Of a DNA stretch of 64,000 nucleotides, positions 2,251 through 59,904 are shown piece after piece. Positions within the stretch are counted from its first letter, which is position 1, and the number at the start of each line of letters is the position of its first letter. The notes under the pieces are model-generated. The model was not told where the DNA came from and did no database searches. It saw only the letters and a list, made by a program, of their open reading frames with translations. Origin of the DNA: Bolinopsis microptera (taxonomy: Eukaryota; Ctenophora; Tentaculata; Lobata; Bolinopsidae); the NCBI RefSeq assembly GCF_026151205.1, contig NC_087084.1:3566845-3630844 (forward strand), given 5' to 3'. A program made the translations under genes and the position numbers.

Positions 2251-2899
2251 ATTTCTTGCTAAGTTACTTCTGCCTGTGCCCTGTAAAAACGAGAATGTTG
2301 ATATCATGCATTAACTTGATGTTAATGTTAAAGATAATGTTAAAGTTAAAATGAATAACCACGCAAATTGCTCTGTCCCTTACAACGAATTGGTTGCCAT
2401 TGGTACCCCCCCGTTCGAGGTCTCGGACGTGAATGTAAATTTGGTAAACCTGCAAGTTTTCCTTTAGTAAGGTTTGTGTCTTGTTTTAGAGGACGACAGT
2501 TTGTTCTCGAAGCTTGATCACGTGACCCAGTTAAAGAATGTTGAGATGTGAATTTTAATCTGCTAAACCTACACGTTTTCCATTTCTATTAGTATTAACA
2601 TGATTAAGTTCGAGTCTGGTGTGCGAGGTACGTGTTTTGTGGTACTAGTTGTAAGTTCGTACCATGGCTCCGTTCTAACCATGTCTCAGGACTCGGTATT
2701 ACTTTTAATTCACTTATATTCAGTACAATTCGGTACATTTTCTTTAAATTTAATTTGTGTTTCAGTTTGATATTCGTTTCACCTAAATTTGTAGCTAGTC
2801 TGATAGAATTCAAAGGGTATAATCATAGTGTGCCATTTGCTGCTCCCATTTCGACGTGCCATCCGACCATCGTTCATTGTTTTCTGTCCAGTAATTGAC

Positions 2900-3243
2900 G
2901 ATCACGTGACAGAACTATGTACGATCACGTGACAGTACTATGTACGATCACGTGACAGTACTATGTACGATCACGTGACAGTACTATGTACGATCACGTG
3001 CCAGTAATATGTACGATCACGTGACAGTACTATGTACGATCACGTGACAGTACTATGTACGATCACGTGACAGTACTATGTACGATCACGTGACAGTACT
3101 ATGTACGATCACGTGACAGAACTATGTACGATCACGTGACAGTACTATGTACGATCACGTGACAGTACTATGTACGATCACGTGACAGTACTATGTACGA
3201 TCACGTGACAGTACTATGTACGATCACGTGACAGTAATATGAC
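2900..3243. repeat. 23-bp satellite with a CACGTG palindrome in every unit
   Basis: Fifteen head-to-tail copies of a 23-base unit that starts GATCACGTGACAG and ends CTATGTAC. Copies begin every 23 bases from 2900 to 3222. Variation is slight (AGAACT or AGTAAT variants), and the palindrome TCACGTGA is kept in every unit except the one at 2992, where its last base differs. The copies abut without spacers, so this is a minisatellite and not a CRISPR-like array. CACGTG is the core site of bHLH-Zip factors (Myc/Max, USF, MITF type). Binding here is inference. Confidence 0.93.
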
Positions 3244-37072: not shown

Positions 37073-37275
37073 GTCAAGACTATTTTAATTCGCGTTTTTG
37101 ACACCACTAAAATTCTTATTCGTTGGCCAATTTTTATTTTTTCATGCTGATTTGAAGGCCATTAAAGCATTTTACCCAGTAAAAAAATTTCAATTGTATA
37201 TCTTTTACGGTTTCTGTGGAAATTGATTTTATTAGTTTCATTGATGCCCTGGTGTCAGTAAAATGGCACGGATCC
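37073..37275. repeat. Dispersed repeat shared with the Merlin element interior
   Basis: It runs from GTTTTTGACACCACTAA to CCCTGGTGTCAGTAAAATGG, so it ends in inverted TGACACCA/TGGTGTCA. Blocks such as TGATTTGAAGGCCATTAA and ATCTTTTACGGTTT occur in the same order at 52068-52768, where an extra roughly 500 bases is present. It may be a deletion derivative of a small element. Confidence 0.6.
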
Positions 37276-47330: not shown

Positions 47331-47345
47331 CTTCAGCTCCTAATG
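47331..47345 (+). promoter_or_regulatory. Splice acceptor 6 nt before the IDI1 start codon
   Basis: The tract ACACCTACTTCAG ends at 47336; CTCCTA then leads to the ATG at 47343. This suggests a leader added by trans-splicing, or a short cis-spliced 5' exon. Confidence 0.5.
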
Positions 47346-48065
47346 ACACAAATAAGGAGACTAACCCAGCTATGTCCGATCCAGACAGCACTACTAAAAG
47401 AAAAAGTCATGCTTGTAGACAGATCTGACAACATAATCGGAGCAGCCAGCAAAGAAGACGCGCATCTCATGAGTAACATCACCAAAACAGGCATGCTCCA
47501 CCGAGCGTTCAGTCTCTTTCTCTTCAACTCTAAAAACGAGCTACTAATGCAGAGGAGGTCGCCTCAGAAGATTACATTCCCGAACCTCTACACCAACACG
47601 TGTTGTTCACACCCTCTTTCCACGATACCGGGAGAACGGGACTTTACTTCAGGGGCTAAAAATGCTGCTATACGTCGGGTAAAAGATGAGATGGGTATCA
47701 CGGATATTTCCTATGATGACATTCATTTCATGACTAGGATTATATATTTCGGCGCGAGCGGTGGCACGTGCGGTAGTGACACCACGTGGGGTGAACACGA
47801 GCTTGATCACGTGTTGATCGTGAAAAAGGACGTGGAGTTTGTTCCGAACCCTAACGAGGTTAGTGAGACGAGGTATATATCGAGGGGTGAGCTGGAGGGG
47901 TTGTTGGAAGATGAGGAGGAGTTTCCGGTTACTCCCTGGTTTAGGATCATTGCGAGGTCCATGTTGACTGGGTGGTGGGATAATATTGATATGTTGCAGG
48001 AACTTTCTGATGATAAAATCCATGAATTCAGCTTCCCGCCTCTTGAGGAGGAATCAAAACACTGA
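47343..48065 (+). CDS. IDI1: Isopentenyl-diphosphate delta-isomerase, type I
   Basis: Complete 240-residue frame without introns. It matches animal IDI1 along its length: HRAFSLFLFNSKNELLMQRR, TNTCCSHPL with the catalytic Cys (Cys88), a degenerate Nudix segment AAIRRVKDEMGI, WGEHELDHVL with the active-site Glu (Glu153), and the TPWF and WWDN motifs. It interconverts isopentenyl and dimethylallyl diphosphate in the mevalonate branch that feeds sterols, dolichol, ubiquinone and prenyl groups. The C-terminus is SKH; vertebrate IDI1 ends in a peroxisomal-type tripeptide, so weak peroxisomal targeting is possible but unproven. Its stop lies 750 bases before the next co-oriented gene. Confidence 0.97.
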   Translation: MTQIRRLTQLCPIQTALLKEKVMLVDRSDNIIGAASKEDAHLMSNITKTGMLHRAFSLFLFNSKNELLMQRRSPQKITFPNLYTNTCCSHPLSTIPGERDFTSGAKNAAIRRVKDEMGITDISYDDIHFMTRIIYFGASGGTCGSDTTWGEHELDHVLIVKKDVEFVPNPNEVSETRYISRGELEGLLEDEEEFPVTPWFRIIARSMLTGWWDNIDMLQELSDDKIHEFSFPPLEEESKH

Positions 48066-50685: not shown

Positions 50686-51060
50686 GTAAGAAAGTAAAAA
50701 GAAACGCGTGCAAAATTCGGTTGCACAGTTTCGATAAACTAGCGTATGAAATCTGGAGCCGCGCAACTGAACAGTGAACATGCGATAAAGTTTTGCATCT
50801 TAGTCTTACAACTGTATTACTCATAATTCCAAATCATAGAAATTGCAATTAACCAATCAGCTTCCACTGGGAAGTTGGTCGTTTACCACCTGACAGTCTA
50901 TGCAACGTCTATGCAACGTCCGTGCAACAACAAAAGAACCGTCTATGCAACGTCTATGCAACGTCCCTGCACAATGAACACTCTATGCACACTCCCTGCA
51001 CGGTCAGTCTATGCAACGTCTATGCAACGTCTATGCAACGTCTATGCAACGTCCCTGCAC

Positions 51061-51955
51061 AGTACCATATGAACACCGGCTACTAGCCGGCTACTAACCG
51101 GCTAGTAGCCACTTTTGTAATAACAGCTCCTCAACTTCACATTAACAACCGGCTACTAACCGGCACTTGAAAAGTGGTCACTAGCCGGCTACTAACCGGC
51201 TACTAGCCGGCTAGTGACCACAAAGTGGCTACTAACCGGCTACTAAGCGGTCACTAGCCGGCTATTAGCCGAGCTCTAAAGCAGACCTACTAGTAGCCGG
51301 TTCCAAACCGGCTACTAGCCGGCACTTAGAAAGTGGTCACTAGCCGGCTACTAACCGGCTACTAACCGGCTAGTAACCACCAAGTGGCTACTAACCGGCT
51401 ACTAACCGGTCACTAGCCGGCTCTTAAGCGGACCTACTAGTAGCCGGTTCCAAACCGGCTACTAGCCGGCACTTAGAAAGCGGTCACTAGCCGGCTACTA
51501 ACCGGCTACTAACCGGCTAGTAACCACCAAGTGGCTACTAACCGGCTACTAACCGGTCACTAGCCGGCTCTTAAGCGGACCTACTAGCCGGCACTCGAAA
51601 AGCGGTCGCTAGCCGGCTACTAACCGGCTAGTAACCACCAAGTGGCTACTAACCGGTCACTAGCCGGCTCTAAAGCGGACCTTCTAGTTCCAAACCGGCT
51701 ACTAGCCGACACTTGAAAAGCGGTCACTAGCCGGCTACTAACCGGCTACTAACCGGCTAGTAACCACCAAGTGGCTACTAACCGGTCACTAGCCGGCTCT
51801 AAAGCGGACCTTCTAGTTCCAAACCGGCTACTAGCCGACACTTGAAAAGCGGTCACTAGCCGGCTGGTGGGTACTAGCTGGTTAGTAGACGGCTACTAAC
51901 CGGCTAGTACTAACTTGCTCTAGGCGACTCTAAATCAGACCGGCTATAATTCATT
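51061..51955. repeat. CCGGCTACTA satellite, left arm
   Basis: Dense CCGGCTACTAGCCGG and CCGGCTACTAACCGG units, themselves near-palindromes, are grouped in a higher-order unit of about 120-140 bases marked by CACTTGAAAAGCGGTCACTA, AACCACCAAGTGG and AAGCGGACCT. About five higher-order copies. The mirror-image array is at 53645-54590. Confidence 0.9.
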
Positions 51956-52067
51956 ATTGCCAAATAAACAAATTATTTGAAACAAATGTCAAGACTTTAG
52001 GAGGCCGGATCAGTTTCCTGCCGCAAAGTCTCCCAGTGAAAATTATTATTACCTATTTAATTCACGT

Positions 52068-52768
52068 TTTTGACACCACTTGGAAGTCCGAATTTTGGGC
52101 ACTAAAATTCTTATTTCTTGGCCAATTTTTTTCCCTGCTCTTGCCGAAGGCAAAAAGATCGTAGGGATCGGAATAAGTAATCGGGTTTGGATATATGAGG
52201 TGAAAAAATGATCCTACGTCTATGACAAAAGTCTGCGCCTTCACAATATAGACCACTCTGCATAAATTGGGGGTATTATTGGCGTTTGTTTTGCTGCGCG
52301 CGACGACAGCTATGTGTTAATTAATTGTTTTATCCAACGCGAATTTCAATTGTCAAACGATGCCGTTTAAATAAATTAGCCCCACATTTGTGCGCGGCGT
52401 ACTAAATATTCGATTATAATCCTGCACGCGCGCAATGATAAATTACGATTAAAAACATTGTACTTATGAATTAAGCAACTTATATTATTACTGAATATTT
52501 TCGTAACTTATGACATGACAACAAAATAATGCAATATCCTATTTTTTTTGACTCAATAAGATTAAACTTTTCATTGCAAACATTAACGGTTTGAGCAGGG
52601 AAAATTGATCGTGCGTGGTGTGACCGCGGCGAAATTCTTGCTTATTTTTTATGTTGATTTGAAGGCCATTAAGGCATTTGACCCAGTCATAACAAATTTG
52701 AGTATTATATCTTTTACGGTTTTTGCGGAACGTCGTGTTAAAGTTGATGCCCTGGTGTCAGTAAAATG
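52068..52768. repeat. Dispersed repeat nested in the Merlin element
   Basis: Ends TGACACCACT and CCTGGTGTCA, sharing blocks with 37073-37275 but about 500 bases longer. The extra interior has several GCGCG-rich patches and no open frame of note. Its presence between the Merlin arms suggests a nested insertion or a captured segment. Confidence 0.55.
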
Positions 52769-52924
52769 GTAGCAAATATATATATAATATAAATAATTAT
52801 AGTGTCCTCATGAAATAAAACAATTAATCTGGTTAGTTTGCAAAATTATGATATATCTACGACTTCATTAAATGCAATACAACATCAATTATATATTTTA
52901 GATAATCATTAAACTTCCCATTAT

Positions 52925-53644
52925 TCAACCAAAGGTTCTTTTCATGAGCTCAGGAATCTCAAAGTTAAAACTCTTACGAACAGAAACATCAGAACGTGTA
53001 AGATTAAATCTCTTCAACCACATAAATTCACAGAGTGCCAAGTCCATTGCAGCTGAATCAGTCCTGGTTCGTTCGTGCCCCCCTCTCATGTGACGCTTAG
53101 CGTGGTACCACATACCTTCACAGGTATTTGTATGCACGCCCGTTGCAGGGTCGATGAATCCACGTCGATGATTCACGGTGAGGTGGATATATCCATGGCG
53201 ATTCAGGTGTGTGTAGCCTTTCCAGCGGTCTGATAGGATTGTAGTACCAGGGTTGATGTAACGCTTTATCAGAGAGAGGAGGGTGTGATGGTTCCTTCTG
53301 TTATCAGGGCACTCCACCAAGAAACATTCTCCAGTAGTTCGACTGACACCTCCAAGCAACCACTTTCCAACAACACGTCTGCCAGAGTTATATTTCCGTT
53401 TCCCGAACTTGCTTTCGTCGACCTCGACGATGTGACCATCACCTCCTATTTTTCCTCCCGCCCCATTCTGGATCAGGTCTTCTGTCATACACTGACGTAG
53501 GGTTTTGACCAGGGTTGCCACAGTGGAGGCAATGGAGGTCTGAGGAACTTGCACGTGCAAAGATTTGCGAGCATCATTTTGATTGATTATGTGGTATTTA
53601 CATTTACGTTGTGCTTTACATTTACAATTTGTTTCAAATAACAA
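52925..53644 (-). CDS. Merlin (ISXO2/IS1595-like) transposase, N-terminus missing
   Basis: A 239-residue frame with the full DDE triad in its usual setting: VDESKFGKRKY (Asp76), ILSDRWKGY (Asp139) and HTNTCEGMWYHAKRHM (Glu176, with the preceding Asn). This is the ISXO2-like DDE domain of Merlin elements. The frame begins at TTG, and an in-frame TGA lies two codons upstream. There is no ATG, and the N-terminal zinc-ribbon/HTH part expected in this family is absent, because the CCGG satellite starts almost at once. A Cys/His cluster remains at residues 7-18. Either an unseen spliced exon supplies the start, or the copy is a catalytic-core remnant. The catalytic core has no stop. Confidence 0.85.
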   Translation of the reverse strand: MLFETNCKCKAQRKCKYHIINQNDARKSLHVQVPQTSIASTVATLVKTLRQCMTEDLIQNGAGGKIGGDGHIVEVDESKFGKRKYNSGRRVVGKWLLGGVSRTTGECFLVECPDNRRNHHTLLSLIKRYINPGTTILSDRWKGYTHLNRHGYIHLTVNHRRGFIDPATGVHTNTCEGMWYHAKRHMRGGHERTRTDSAAMDLALCEFMWLKRFNLTRSDVSVRKSFNFEIPELMKRTFG

Positions 53645-54590
53645 GTTTCAAATAGTAGCCGGTTAGTAGCCGGCTAGTGACCGCTTTTCAAGTGTCGGCT
53701 AGTAGCCGGTTTGGAACTAGAAGGTCCGCTTTAGAGCCGGCTAGTGACCGGTTAGTAGCCACTTGGTGGTTACTAGCCGGTTAGTAGCCGGTTAGTAGCC
53801 GGCTAGCGACCGCTTTTCGAGTGCCGGCTAGTAGGTCCGCTTAAGAGCCGGCTAGTGACCGGTTAGTAGCCACTTGGTGGTTACTAGCCGGTTAGTAGCC
53901 GGTTAGTAGCCGGCTAGTGACCGCTTTCTAAGCACCGGAACCGGCTACTTGGAACCGGCTACTAGTAGGTCTGCTTTAGAGCTCGGCTAATAGCCGGCTA
54001 GTGACCGGTTAGTGACCGCTTTCTAAGCACCGGAACCGGCTACTTGGAACCGGCTACTAGTAGGTCTGCTTTAGAGCTCGGCTAATAGCCGGCTAGTGAC
54101 CGGTTAGTAGCCGGTTAGTAGCCACTTGGTGGTTACTAGCCGGTTAGTAGCCGGTTAGTAGCCGGCGAGTGACCGCTTTTCAAGTGCCGGCTAGTAGCCG
54201 GTTTAGAACCGGCTACTAATAGGTCTGCTTTAGAGCCGGCTAGTGACCGGTTAGTAGCCGGTTAGTAGCCACTTGGTGGTTACTAGCCGGTTAGTAGCCG
54301 GTTAGTAGCCGGCTAGTGACCGCTTTCTAAGTGCCGGCTAGTAGCCGGTTTGGAACCGGCTACTAGTAGGTCTGCTTTAGAGCTCGGCTAATAGCCGGCT
54401 AGTGACCGCTTAGTAGCCGGTTAGTAGCCACTTTGTGGTCACTAGCCGGCTAGTAGCCGGTTAGTAGCCGGCTAGTGACCACTTTTCAAGTGCCGGTTAG
54501 TAGCCGGTTGTTAATGTGAAGTTGAGGAGCTGTTATTACAAAAGTGGCTACTAGCCGGTTAGTAGCCGGCTAGTAGCCGGTGTTCATATG
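53645..54590. repeat. CCGGCTACTA satellite, right arm
   Basis: Inverted counterpart of 51061-51955 with the same higher-order unit but a different copy number and order. It starts about ten bases after the transposase frame. Confidence 0.9.
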
Positions 54591-54944
54591 GTACTGTGCA
54601 GGGACGTTGCATAGACGTTGCATAGACGTTGCATAGACGTTGCATAGACTGACCGTGCAGGGAGTGTGCATAGAGTGTTCATTGTGCAGGGACGTTGCAT
54701 AGACGTTGCATAGACGGTTCTTTTGTTGTTGCACGGACGTTGCATAGACGTTGCATAGACTGTCAGGTGGTAAACGACCAAGTTGCCCTTCCACTATAAA
54801 CCGATCAAACCCCAGAATAATGTTCTTGGTTATATTGACAAAGGAAGACAGTTGATCACCGAAATATAATAAATTCAGCCAGCAGCAGTTACAATAATAT
54901 TTTATCATATATATACAAATAATAGTAAAGTGTACATAAAAAAC

Positions 54945-55791
54945 GGCCAGTTGGTAGATCACCGACCGGCTATAAGCCGGCTACTAACCGGCTATAAGCC
55001 GGCTTATAGCCGGCTACAATTTTTATAGCCGGCTATAAGCCGGCTTATAGTCGGTTAGTAGCCGCTTACATTTGTTGTTGAGCGACGGCTATTAGCCGGT
55101 TATAAGCCTGCTATTAGCCGTTTTGGTATTAAAAGTGGTTATAAGCCGGTTATAAGATATTAACTCAACTACATCGTACTGAACGATAGTCAGGAGCCGG
55201 CTATAAGAAATTCAGTGAAAACGGCTATTAGCCGGTTATAAGCCGGCTATTAGCCGTTTAGGTATCGAAAGTGGTTATAAGCCGGCTATAAGCCGGTTAT
55301 AAGATATTAACTCAGTTCAGTACGATGAAGTTAAGTTAATATCTTATAACCGGCTTATAGCCGGCTTATAACCACTTTCGATACCTAAACAGCTAATAGC
55401 CGGCTTATAACCGGCTAATAGCCGTTTTCGCTGAATTTCTTATAGCCGGCTCCTGACTATCGTTCAGTACGATGAAGTTGAGTTAATATCTTATAACCGG
55501 CTTATAGCCGGCCTATAGCCGGCTTATAACCACTTTCGATACCTAAACGGCTAATAGCCGGCTTATAACCGGCTAATAGCCGTTTTCACTGAATCTCTTA
55601 TAGCCGATACCTAAACGGCTAATAGCCGGCTTATAACCGGCTAATAGCCGTCGCTCAACAACAAATGTAACCGGCTACTAACCGGCTATAAGCCGGCTTA
55701 TAGCCGGCTATAAAAATTGTAGCCGGCTATAAGCCGGTTTATAGCCGGCTTATAACCGGCTTATAGCCGGTCGGTGATCTACCAATTTCCC
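54945..55791. mobile_element. Non-autonomous foldback element related to the Merlin element
   Basis: The flanking octamer TAAAAAAC is duplicated exactly (54937-54944 and 55792-55799). The ends are inverted: GGCCAGTTGGTAGATCACCG against GGGAAATTGGTAGATCACCG read from the right. The whole 847 bases is built from CCGGCTATAAGCCGG and CCGGCTTATAGCCGG motifs plus about 60-base blocks with CTATCGTTCAGTACGATGAA, mirrored about the centre near 55325. TTGGT termini, 8-bp duplications and CCGGCTA arrays match the neighbour at 50869-54787. It has no coding capacity and would need a transposase in trans. Confidence 0.88.
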
Positions 55792-56087
55792 TAAAAAACA
55801 ACTGCGAGTGATCATACAGTTGATTCTACTTCATTGTCTATCTCTGTTCATTTTAAGCACCAACATTTTCCAACTCCCTCTGTTGATATTGTAGATTGCC
55901 GATCCTTTCTGATACTAATTACATATCCAATTCACCGTCATTCAAATTCTTTTTAGGCACTGAGAGACGAAAGTTGAGAATCTTTGGTACTTTTTATCAA
56001 AGCCATAGCTCCCACAACTTAAGGTCCGTTTACCGTGTCAAGGTTGATATCTCCTACCTGGTTCTTGTAATCTCCTTCTCCAGCCAG

Positions 56088-59000
56088 TTATAGATTGGTT
56101 TCTCCCACTTGGTTAATGTTGTCTCCATCTCCAGCCAGCTCAAGGTTGATATCTCCTACTTGGTTATTGTTGTCTCCTTCTCTAGTCAGTTCGAGGTTGA
56201 TTTCTCTTATTTGGTTCTTGTTATCTCCTTCTTCAGTCAGCTGTATGTTGGTATCTCCTACTTGGTTATTGTTTTCATCTTCTCCAGTCACCTCCAGGTT
56301 GATATCTTCTGCTTGGTTATTGTTGTTTCCTTCTCCAGCCAGGTCTAGATCAAGGTTGATATCTCCTACTTGGTTCTTGTTGTCATCTTCTCCAGTCACC
56401 TCCAGGTTGATATCTTCTGCTTGGTTATTGTTGTTTCCTTCTCCAGCCAGGTCTAGATCAAGGTTGATATCTCCTACTTGGTTATTGTTTTCATCTTCTC
56501 CAGTCACCTCCAGGTTGATATCTTCTGCTTGGATATTGTTGTTTCCTTCTTCAGCCAGGTCTAGATCAAGGTTGATATCTCCTACTTGGTTATTGTTGTC
56601 ATCTGCTCCAGTCACCTCCAGGTTGATATCTTCTGCTTGGTTCTTGTTGTCTCTTTCTCCAGTCGGCTCCAGGTTGGTATCTCCTACTTGGTTGTTGTTG
56701 TCGTCTTCTCCAGTCACCTCCAGGTTGGTATCTCCTACTTGGTTCTCGTTGTCTCCTTCTCCAGCAAACTCTGCTCTGGCAGGCCTTTCTCCTCCTTGTA
56801 CCATTACACCATCCAGCTCCATAGTTTCACGTGGTCTTGGTCTTCTTATTCTTTCTCTGAAGACTCTAATTGTTCTTGAGTTGGCCGTGGCGTTTCTAAA
56901 TCTCTGAACAGGAAGGCTGAGGAGGTGTGTCACAGTATCATCGTAGATCAATGGATTGATTACAGAGTTTATCGGGAGGATGATCATGGAGAACAAGCTG
57001 TACCAGGGTGTTGCATCAAGAACATCAAAGGAATGCAATACACAGATCACTATGAATGGAATCCAGCAAAGAAAATCTGTAGTGATGATGATTGTGATTC
57101 TCATGTTCATTTTTCTATTCCGCCGTGAAATTTGTTCGTTGCCTCCTGTCTTTGTCAAACTTTTGGATGATCTGTAAGAAATAATGCCTATTACCAAATA
57201 CGACACTGTAATGAGAATGAAGCACACAAAGTTCAAAGCAAGGATTGTCCATACAAAATTCCTCTGAGGATCTTCTGCTTTGACAAAATACTTAAATAGG
57301 CAGACCCCGTCGTTCCCATAAAAGTCAACTTTTGAAATCTTTGTCGTATGGTCCTCATAACCATCATCATGAGAATACATCTCAGACATCATTTCGTTTA
57401 TCAATTTCCAATCGAGTGTTGTGTGCTTCATTCTGCCAAAATATGCTCGAAAGATGGCAAGCAGCCTCTGCTTATTCGGTGTTCCAATCAAAACCTTGAG
57501 TTGGTCTGCGTATTTTACCCCATTGACGAATAAATCTTCAAATCTGCTAATGATTGGGATAACAGCAATGGTGATGGATGCTAGGGTCATCATAAGCAAA
57601 CCTGCTACAACTTGCAGCGATTTCTTCCACGTTGCTTCTCCTGGTATACTCATGGAATTGTATATTCCATAAATTCTGGTGAGGCTCAATGCACACATTG
57701 CAAATAGAGATATTTGGGAGCCTATGGTGCTGAGGACACCAATTACTGAACAGTTGGTGCTTGTAATCCAACTGATCTGCTGAGTACAGTAATCTTCTTT
57801 AAAGATTATTCCATCGTAGATTGAGATGCAAAATAGATATCCACCTACTAAAAGATCTCCTAAAGATATAATCATGATGAGAGATCTATTCAACAGAGCC
57901 ACTGTGGTTTTACATTTCTTTAGGGGTCCTGCATTTTTGACAAGGATGACTAAGTTTGCAACGATAGCTAGAAACCCAATCACCCAGGAGAGAACTTTTA
58001 ACACTGTGCCCTCAAGAATCTTTGTAGAGCACTGAGCGTTACATTCGTCAGATAAATCCATACAGTCGTATGACCCATCACATTTGCTAGTCTTTGGTAT
58101 GTAAAGTCCACTTTCTTTGCATTTAAAATGATTAGAGCAGCTTTCCTCATCAGAACCATCCCCACAATCATCAACAAGGTTGCATACTTTTGAGAAGTCG
58201 ATGCACTTTACTTTGTTATCACAGACAAAGTATCTGTTGGTATAGATACTACCAAATGACTTTGTAAAAAAGGCCAGGTATTTATTGTTGGCTATGGTGC
58301 CAATTCTGTTGCGATATTGTCCTGGACAAACTTCATATCTGGGAATATTTCTCAATGGACAAGTAGAGTCGGTACACTCACCGATACAACTAGTGTACAC
58401 ATACAGCTCTCCAAACATGTGGTCACAAGTTTGAGTTTTTTTTGGAAGGATCACTGTAGTTCTGCTTTCCACTCCAAAAAAGTGATGCTTCGGAAAGATG
58501 AAAGAGGCATCTGTTTTGCAAGTGTCATTGAAGTTTTGAGTGTTCTTGATCCCCTTTATGCAGTGTGAAAGATGCTTCGTCAAGGTTCTGTCGGTTGTGA
58601 GAACAGTTGTGGAAGGTTTTGGTGAACTACTAGACTCGGAGCAAATTTTGTTCTCGTTCCCACAAGTTTCAACTCCATCACAGAGTTGACCGAACTCCAC
58701 GTATCCAGGCTCGCCCCATAGGCAAAGGTAAACGTTTTCACATATTTTGTCATTGCTGGTAACAAATCTTAACGATTGTTGGAACCCACAGGTGGGCCAA
58801 TTGTCTTTTTCATCTGCGCCGCTTATGCAATCCACTACTCCGTCTTTCAGCCAGGACAGGGGTATTGGTAATTCCTCTGCCTTTCCGATCCGTCTTTTAC
58901 ACTTTTGTTCTGTCTTGGAGGTGCAATCAAGATTTGTTTCGTCGCTCTTGTCGTTACAATCCTGTTTACCATCACACAGTGAGTGCTTGTGAATGGAGCA

Positions 59001-59904
59001 GGAGGTAGAGGTGCTAAGACACTGGTTCTCGATATTATCGTCGCACGCCTTTTCTCCCCGACATATCATAAATTTGGAAAATGAGGACATATATCCGTTC
59101 ATAAGACAATATCCTCCAACCTTGGCGGTATCAGAGCAGTTTGTCTGATATGGTGCATAATTCTTGCAATAATGTAATAAATTACCGTCCTGGTATTCCT
59201 TGCCAAAAGCATACTCCATCTGATGACATCGTGTTATATTTAGAACAGGAACTATTCTTCCTGTTTTGGAATGTTCACAAGTGTACTGTGTCTCGTTGGT
59301 AACAGCACAGTTCTCTTCGTCTTCTCCGCCATTGCAATCCTTAACACCATCACATATCCAGCTAGCTGGAAAGTGATAATTCTCTATACCCCAGTCGTTG
59401 CAACTGATACCGTAGTGGTATCCTCCACAATCGGCCTCGTCTTCACAATTCCAGGAGTCGCACACTCCATCGCAGACATCTTTGGATAATAATCTTTTTC
59501 CACTCGGCAGGGTTATCCATTTCATTGAATAATCAGAATAATCAGCATCTGAACACCCTGTCTCATCTAGATCGGTATTCACACAGTCTCGTTGTCTGTT
59601 GCAGTGAAGGCCTCTGTCTTTCATTTCAACGGTTGTCGACATTTGCCCTGAGTCCAGTTTGACACAGATATAGCTTCCACATAGAGTCTCTTTATTTGTT
59701 ATCCTGTCCATTGTCGTCGTGCCGCAGACTTGGTAAAAGTGCTTATCTTTGGAGCACAAACCTGCTATTTTGTTAGTATGCAAGCCGTCGCTGGTATATA
59801 ATGGAAAAGTGGAATAATATTCCTTTGAGTTATGGCACTTGTAGCGGGACACTCTTTCATCTGATTCACATACATACTTCAGGAATCCTTTTTCTTCTTT
59901 CAAA
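56088..59904 (-). CDS. LDL-receptor class A repeat 7TM receptor, last exon
   Basis: One 1271-residue frame without introns. Residues 1-630 are extracellular and Cys-rich, with about seven LDLa-like modules (for example at about 168-199, 302-327, 388-421, 561-589 and 595-621; motifs CDGVKDC, CDGKQDC and DDCGDGSDE), several lacking full sets of acidic or Cys residues. A rhodopsin-family 7TM core follows (about 634-990) with NPLIY (983-987) and SLTRIYG in place of DRY. This order recalls the LDLa-bearing leucine-rich receptors (GRL101/relaxin-receptor group), but no leucine-rich repeats are seen. A basic segment (1001-1026) precedes a roughly 225-residue Asn/Asp/Glu-rich repeat tail. The frame starts at TTG right after an acceptor-like TGCAG (59909-59905), so the signal peptide must come from an unseen exon above 59905. 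Confidence 0.87.
56095..56765 (-). repeat. Coding minisatellite in the receptor tail
   Basis: About 13-14 imperfect units of 48-60 bases encode variants of GEDDNNNQVGDINLEVT. A higher-order pair (a unit with DLDLAGEGNNNNQAEDINL) repeats three times. All units stay in frame. The antisense open frames here (56095-56907 and others) are shadows. Confidence 0.9.

Follow-up and report, generated by a model that had tools for sequence, protein, structure and literature searches.

A foldback-type Merlin family with 11-bp-phased kilobase arms and a linked second gene in the ctenophore Bolinopsis microptera

Described relatives and the Bolinopsis element

Merlin elements are eukaryotic relatives of IS1016/IS1595, and the parts of the published account used here (PMC8101967) ascribe to them GG ends, target-site duplications of 8-9 bp and inverted repeats of 24-462 bp. 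The same parts note internal tandem repeats in Merlin, propose that these spread as proto-satellites, and report matches in three ctenophores, Mnemiopsis, Pleurobrachia and Beroe (PMC8101967). We analysed a 64,000-nucleotide stretch of the ctenophore Bolinopsis microptera (RefSeq assembly GCF_026151205.1, contig NC_087084.1, positions 3,566,845 to 3,630,844, forward strand; hereafter the window), in which an element at 50869-54787 has the IS1595-type DDE transposase, GG ends and 8-bp duplications of Merlin as so described (PMC8101967). Its inverted arms of ~1.07 kb exceed the repeat lengths given above, which are a reported size range and set no defining limit (PMC8101967). Unlike the Merlin elements in the consulted parts of that account, the family has arms phased at 11 bp and a linked second gene encoding a zinc-knuckle pattern (PMC8101967). 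The combination, in one Merlin family, of foldback structure, kilobase arms phased at 11 bp and a linked second gene is new; our literature search, with subscription journals and Repbase outside its reach, returned no description of such a Merlin element.

Foldback elements are recognised structurally by long inverted arms with internal tandem repeats, and the window element has both. According to the consulted sections of PMC4079207, foldbacks with repeat-filled arms belong mostly to Mutator, with exceptions such as Galileo in the P superfamily. In Galileo, as excerpted from PMC3688188, the THAP domain of the transposase binds several sites within the long inverted repeats. The window element resembles the foldback-like Galileo in its long inverted repeats with internal tandem repeats; it differs in that its transposase belongs to an unrelated superfamily and that protein binding to the arrays is here proposed by analogy (PMC3688188). 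With Tetris and other foldbacks it shares long inverted arms, internal tandem repeats, duplications of 8-10 bp and non-autonomous copies (PMC4079207). For Tetris, the same sections give units of ~220 bp and a Mutator affiliation suggested by its authors, and describe repeats that formed satellite arrays, whereas none were found here among the first 100 listed satellite sites (PMC4079207). As the Bolinopsis element shows, the Merlin group has likewise evolved long ends filled with repeats.

En/Spm (CACTA) elements use TnpA as a second protein and have subterminal 12-bp sites of about one helical turn each. The Bolinopsis family is similar in combining a second protein with repeated short subterminal units, binding to which is here putative, and unlike En/Spm in its unrelated transposase.

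The window element and its copies across the genome

We consider it likely that the DNA at 50869-54787 was inserted recently, by cut and paste, as a foldback-type, IS1595-related Merlin mobilised in trans, and that its phased arrays are bound by protein. The features of the element are as follows.

50861-50868, + strand: left target-site duplication CTTCCACT, with an exact copy at 54788-54795
50869-50894, + strand: left terminal motif GGGAAGTTGGTCGTTTACCACCTGAC, 26 bp
50896-51053, + strand: left subterminal array of 11-bp GTCTATGCAAC units (Tandem Repeats Finder, TRF: period 11, 14.3 copies)
51077-51941, + strand: left CCGG satellite, 11-bp CCGGCTACTAA units in 147-/129-bp higher-order units
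52925-53644, - strand: frame for the DDE (catalytic) half of an IS1595/Merlin-type transposase, with upstream sequence in place of the N-terminus following a deletion
53655-54586, - strand: right CCGG satellite, inverted (alignment, TRF and identity at a lag of 11 bp)
54603-54760, - strand: right subterminal 11-bp array, inverted (TRF period 11)
54762-54787, - strand: right terminal motif GGCAACTTGGTCGTTTACCACCTGAC, read inward
54788-54795, + strand: right target-site duplication CTTCCACT, exact

The element spans 3,919 bp, is flanked on both sides by exact CTTCCACT octamers, and ends in GGGAAGTTGGTCG and GGCAACTTGGTCG, inverted over 13 bases with two differences. A scan of the window for GG-starting 16-bp inverted ends (≤4 mismatches, exact 8-bp duplication, 150-9,000 bp apart) returned three matches: this element, a neighbouring foldback at 54945-55791 and a poly-G artefact. 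Each arm consists, outermost first, of the 26-bp end, a block of 11-bp TATGCAAC / GTCTATGCAAC units and the CCGGCTACTAA array. The two arms (element positions 1-1073 against 3919-2855) are 88% identical in an alignment of 1,101 columns that includes 64 gap letters. Only 3 positions differ in the outer 480 bp (99.4% identity), so most of the divergence lies further in. TRF places 11-bp arrays at 50896-51053, 51147-51765, 53768-53918, 54079-54476 and 54603-54760, with higher-order units of 147, 129, 111 and 95 bp. Identity at lag 11 in the left subterminal array is 0.70 against 0.26 in shuffles, and the single-strand fold of the left CCGG array has a z of -18 relative to 20 shuffles. The G+C content of the window is 37.8%, and an Rfam search of it gave no match. 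The duplication, the 13-base ends and the ~1.1-kb arms of CCGG units named in a preliminary description of this DNA were thus all recovered.

Genome-wide searches covered the 264.65-Mb assembly of 232 contigs (C1-C13 are contig labels, the window being on C13). The inner 20 bases of the element's terminal motif matched 156 + 152 sites with ≤3 mismatches, against 6 + 6 for the reversed-pattern control. Ends were read in the window and in 27 fetched loci (L039-L065; L001-L038 lay outside the sample), which were chosen as strong matches and are hence a non-random sample. After exclusion of seven loci with ends in one orientation (L040, L041, L045, L053, L054, L062 and L064), this left 19 copies with both ends, two of which were each assembled from a pair of loci (L043/L044 and L063/L065, the latter spanning 33.9 kb). 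Fourteen of the 19 carry exact 8-bp duplications, every octamer being different. The preliminary description had named other end points or missing duplications elsewhere as signs of error; the other copies checked end at the same point, and most have the duplication.

One GGGAAG end is paired with one GGCAAC end in 18 of the 19 copies, L042 being the exception. The two mismatches between the ends of the window element therefore represent a constant left/right mark of the family and not decay. Both ends begin with GG in 18/19, a count to be read with the bias of the end-scan pattern, which starts with GG and tolerates 3 substitutions; one L042 end begins ACCAAG. The transposase is read from the GGCAAC side wherever it is present (window, L059, L060 and L061). 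The outer 480 bp of the window GGGAAG arm is letter-for-letter identical in five of 11 other copies (L046, L047, L048, L049 and L058) and that of the GGCAAC arm in one of 11, while the remaining outer arms compared differ by substitutions, insertions or deletions. These identities indicate that part of the family moved recently. Since identical outer arms are found on different chromosomes, the family looks young, and polymorphic insertions and a live source may therefore exist in ctenophores.

Two arrangements at individual loci were also observed. At C2:410103-443987 (L063, L064 and L065) the family is apparently present as two copies in head-to-tail arrangement; the same CATTATGT octamer occurs at the two outermost ends, 33.9 kb apart. 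In L062 (C6:10842500-10850500), three element ends all point the same way and each follows GTACCAAG; two copies of a putative reverse-transcriptase-like frame run into the later two ends, and the locus also holds a fused transposase/second-gene frame of 438 amino acids.

Transposase, internal deletion and second gene

The window frame 52925-53644 (- strand) matches Pfam PF12762 (DDE_Tnp_IS1595) at 2.9e-15 and 57 bits (cut-off 27) and the NCBIfam IS1595 model NF033547 at 79.3 bits (cut-off 75). With both curated cut-offs exceeded, and with the end point and 8-bp duplications recurring in other copies, the DDE transposase frame between the arms and the assignment to a recent, IS1595-type Merlin, as first proposed from the letters alone, hold. 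A search of the transposase profile against the Protein Data Bank gave no match at E up to 1. D76, D139 and E176 are invariant in all four aligned sequences (the window and three other copies), and we read them from their motifs as the probable catalytic residues.

The frame is complete for the catalytic half alone, its first ~43 codons matching stop-interrupted sequence in L059, L061 and L065. We rejected a reading of these 43 codons as an 'exon 1' on account of those stops and of a helix-turn-helix-like stretch that intervenes in L059. Other subfamilies have open transposase frames of 312-337 codons with an N-terminal cysteine pattern and a helix-turn-helix-like stretch, for which profile matches are sub-threshold; the cysteine pattern of these complete relatives, one of which lies at C1:17444575-17445543, reads as zinc-ribbon-like. 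The window copy has neither N-terminal feature, and L059 retains the helix-turn-helix-like stretch without the cysteine pattern. Relative to L059, ~300 bp are missing from the window copy between element positions 2640 and 2677, and a 2-kb stretch that in L063 carries the second gene, between left arm and transposase, is missing as well. A complete transposase is thus absent from the window element, and besides the transposase the longest frame between its arms is ≤71 amino acids. These alignments mark the window copy as a derivative formed by deletion, lacking both the transposase N-terminus and the second gene. The preliminary description was right about the element and silent on the deletion, the second gene and the second foldback ~150 bp to the right.

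A frame of 398 amino acids in L043 represents the second gene; its product carries a zinc-knuckle pattern (CX2CX4HX4C), is proline-rich in its middle part and has a basic, conserved C-terminus. The gene is found, for instance, at C10:11057248-11058441, and a relative on C11 has 319 amino acids. Between the L043 and C11 frames, codon positions 1/2/3 differ in 0.43/0.32/0.64 of 301 aligned codons, a pattern that fits a constrained protein, with the proline-rich repeats included in the comparison. Genome-wide, 115 matches fall at 78 loci, 27 of which lie ≤6 kb from one of 106 transposase loci, as compared with a random mean of 0.42 and maximum of 4 in 1,000 trials. In two further subfamilies, 16 listed end pairs (~1.9-8.2 kb; those of one subfamily drawn from 100 of its 103 ends) include 14 with a transposase match, ten of which also have the second gene; the pair at C7:6787569 contains the second gene alone and that at C6:17670733 neither gene. 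Transposase and second gene are divergently transcribed in 10/10 of these two-gene relatives; in the four window-family copies checked (L059, L060, L061 and L063) both are on one strand. The best Protein Data Bank match of the second protein has an E of 0.37, and NCBIfam gave nothing convincing. With such a linked gene, Merlin would here be a system of two genes.

Several results weigh against the explanation preferred above for the window element. With the complete transposase of a relative as query, none of the matches in the window family extends to its N-terminus, the best spanning residues 90-322 of the 323 and another 82-263; the search hence located no source of mobilisation. Duplications are absent from four of the 19 two-ended copies (L042, L050, L052 and L057), and in L051 the same 8-mer follows after one extra base. 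At 51 of the 78 second-gene loci there is no transposase match within ≤6 kb, and four of the 14 transposase-bearing relatives (C11:2671573, C4:14168381, C10:9606902 and C5:241006) have no second gene. Pfam matches of the second protein to zf-CCHC and CCDC106, at 18.3 and 17 bits, fall below the cut-offs of 20.8 and 30.2.

Phased arrays, their proposed role and alternative explanations

The second foldback of the window belongs to a sister family.

54937-54944, + strand: left duplication TAAAAAAC of the neighbouring foldback
54945-55791, no strand assigned: neighbouring 847-bp foldback, sister family, Merlin-type, with exact TAAAAAAC duplication
55792-55799, + strand: right duplication TAAAAAAC of the neighbouring foldback

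Located ~150 bp to the right of the window element, this foldback has ends GGCCAG / GGGAAA followed by TTGGTAGATCACCGACCGG, and is built of 11-bp CCGGCTATAAG-like units. Its family's ends occur 88 + 83 times genome-wide (≤3 mismatches; control 2 + 2), with 39 pairs spanning 255-3,044 bp among the first 100 listed ends. The 3,044-bp copy lies on C7; in it CCGG arms enclose a fragment of Merlin transposase, the duplication matches at 7/8 positions, and the two ends are alike, so that the left/right mark is not universal. Two further subfamilies with different ends gave 50 + 53 and 24 + 26 matches (controls 0), including one copy on C1 with an exact ACTTAATT duplication and one on C11 with a 7/8 duplication.

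Inverted, 11-bp-phased arrays are present in all four subfamilies examined. At lag 11, eight array stretches have a self-identity of 0.47-0.72, as compared with 0.27-0.31 for three control stretches. The window family uses the units CCGGCTACTAA and TATGCAAC, the neighbour family an CCGGCTATAAG-like unit, and the other two subfamilies GGGCACACCTC and AAGACAACATT. The CCGGCTATAAG-like unit is similar to CCGGCTACTAA, and a CCGGCTA unit is common to the window and neighbour families, so that the families are not all independent of one another; the number of unrelated unit sequences is at least three. That the 11-bp step recurs with at least three unrelated units suggests some reason why phased subterminal arrays persist, and subfamilies with unrelated units amount to natural experiments on the role of the arrays. 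The phasing at 11 bp common to the four subfamilies strengthens the preliminary suggestion, itself plausible, that the repeat units could be several transposase sites.

We propose that a full transposase, with N-terminal DNA-binding and DDE parts, would cut at the GG ends and insert with an 8-bp stagger, and that the window copy, non-autonomous, would have been moved in trans. The arms would offer protein sites in long arrays, spaced at about a helical turn (11 bp) and in many cases palindromic, which the transposase, the zinc-knuckle second protein or both may bind. By analogy with the THAP domain of Galileo, such binding could pair the ends and confer specificity, while array length would drift through unequal exchange and slippage. 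More tentatively, and with the balance slightly against it, ctenophore Merlins may be two-component elements in which the second protein coats the 11-bp arrays at both ends to form the synaptic complex; each subfamily would have co-evolved unit sequences of its own, and the arrays would have been lengthened into foldback arms of kilobase size, of which short derivatives take advantage.

The strongest competing explanation is that the arms play no part in transposition: 11-bp repeats would expand by slippage and unequal exchange and be tolerated, with the terminal ~26 bp alone mattering. Copy size does vary, 21 of the 23 end pairs on C1 and C2 spanning 647-1,780 bp and two spanning 7,093 and 12,532 bp. 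The 147-, 129-, 111- and 95-bp higher-order units point to local duplication, the CCGG and outer TATGCAAC units within one arm are different sequences, and the CCGGCTA unit shared by the window and neighbour families fits this explanation too. A shared period is not what drift alone would predict, however, and the same step recurs in both inverted arms and across at least three unrelated units in the four subfamilies examined; we consider a functionless origin of the arms unlikely, though it deserves some weight.

It is far less probable that the satellite came first, as host tandem arrays later captured into the element ends, although the arms do resemble higher-order satellite in TRF. The satellite 21-mer CCGGCTACTAACCGGCTACTA has 716 + 633 sites (1,349) genome-wide with ≤1 mismatch, against 0 + 0 for the control. 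Placement was read for the first 100 listed exact sites, all on C1 and C2. Of these, 98 lie ≤1.5 kb from an element end and 78 fall inside a plus/minus pair; the two sites >1.5 kb away stand beside second-gene sequence in a partial, one-end copy on C1. This distribution argues that the satellite lives in elements. No free array outside elements was found among these 100, and the suggestion in the preliminary description that the element seeds satellite arrays elsewhere is not borne out by them.

Mutator duplications are similar in size to those seen here. A Mutator or P superfamily foldback with a nested Merlin transposase is nevertheless the least credible explanation, since the assignment of most described foldbacks to Mutator, with Galileo among the exceptions (PMC4079207, sections consulted), is set against IS1595-type transposases inside the same kind of ends in the sister families, GG ends with 8-bp duplications as in the Merlin pattern (PMC8101967, parts used here), and the lack of any other frame >71 amino acids between the window arms.

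Elsewhere in the window, a short degraded stretch at 37105-37266 is similar to the element interior (81-94% identity) and has no arms. Both foldbacks sit just downstream of an open frame of 1,271 amino acids at 56088-59903 (- strand) with LDL-receptor class A repeats and a rhodopsin-type seven-transmembrane domain, the C-terminal part of which is overlapped by a 51/108-bp tandem repeat at 56036-56765 (TRF). An open frame at 47343-48065 (+ strand) has a NUDIX domain (Pfam 3.5e-11), and a 23-bp tandem repeat occupies 2898-3241 (TRF; 15 copies, 97% matches).

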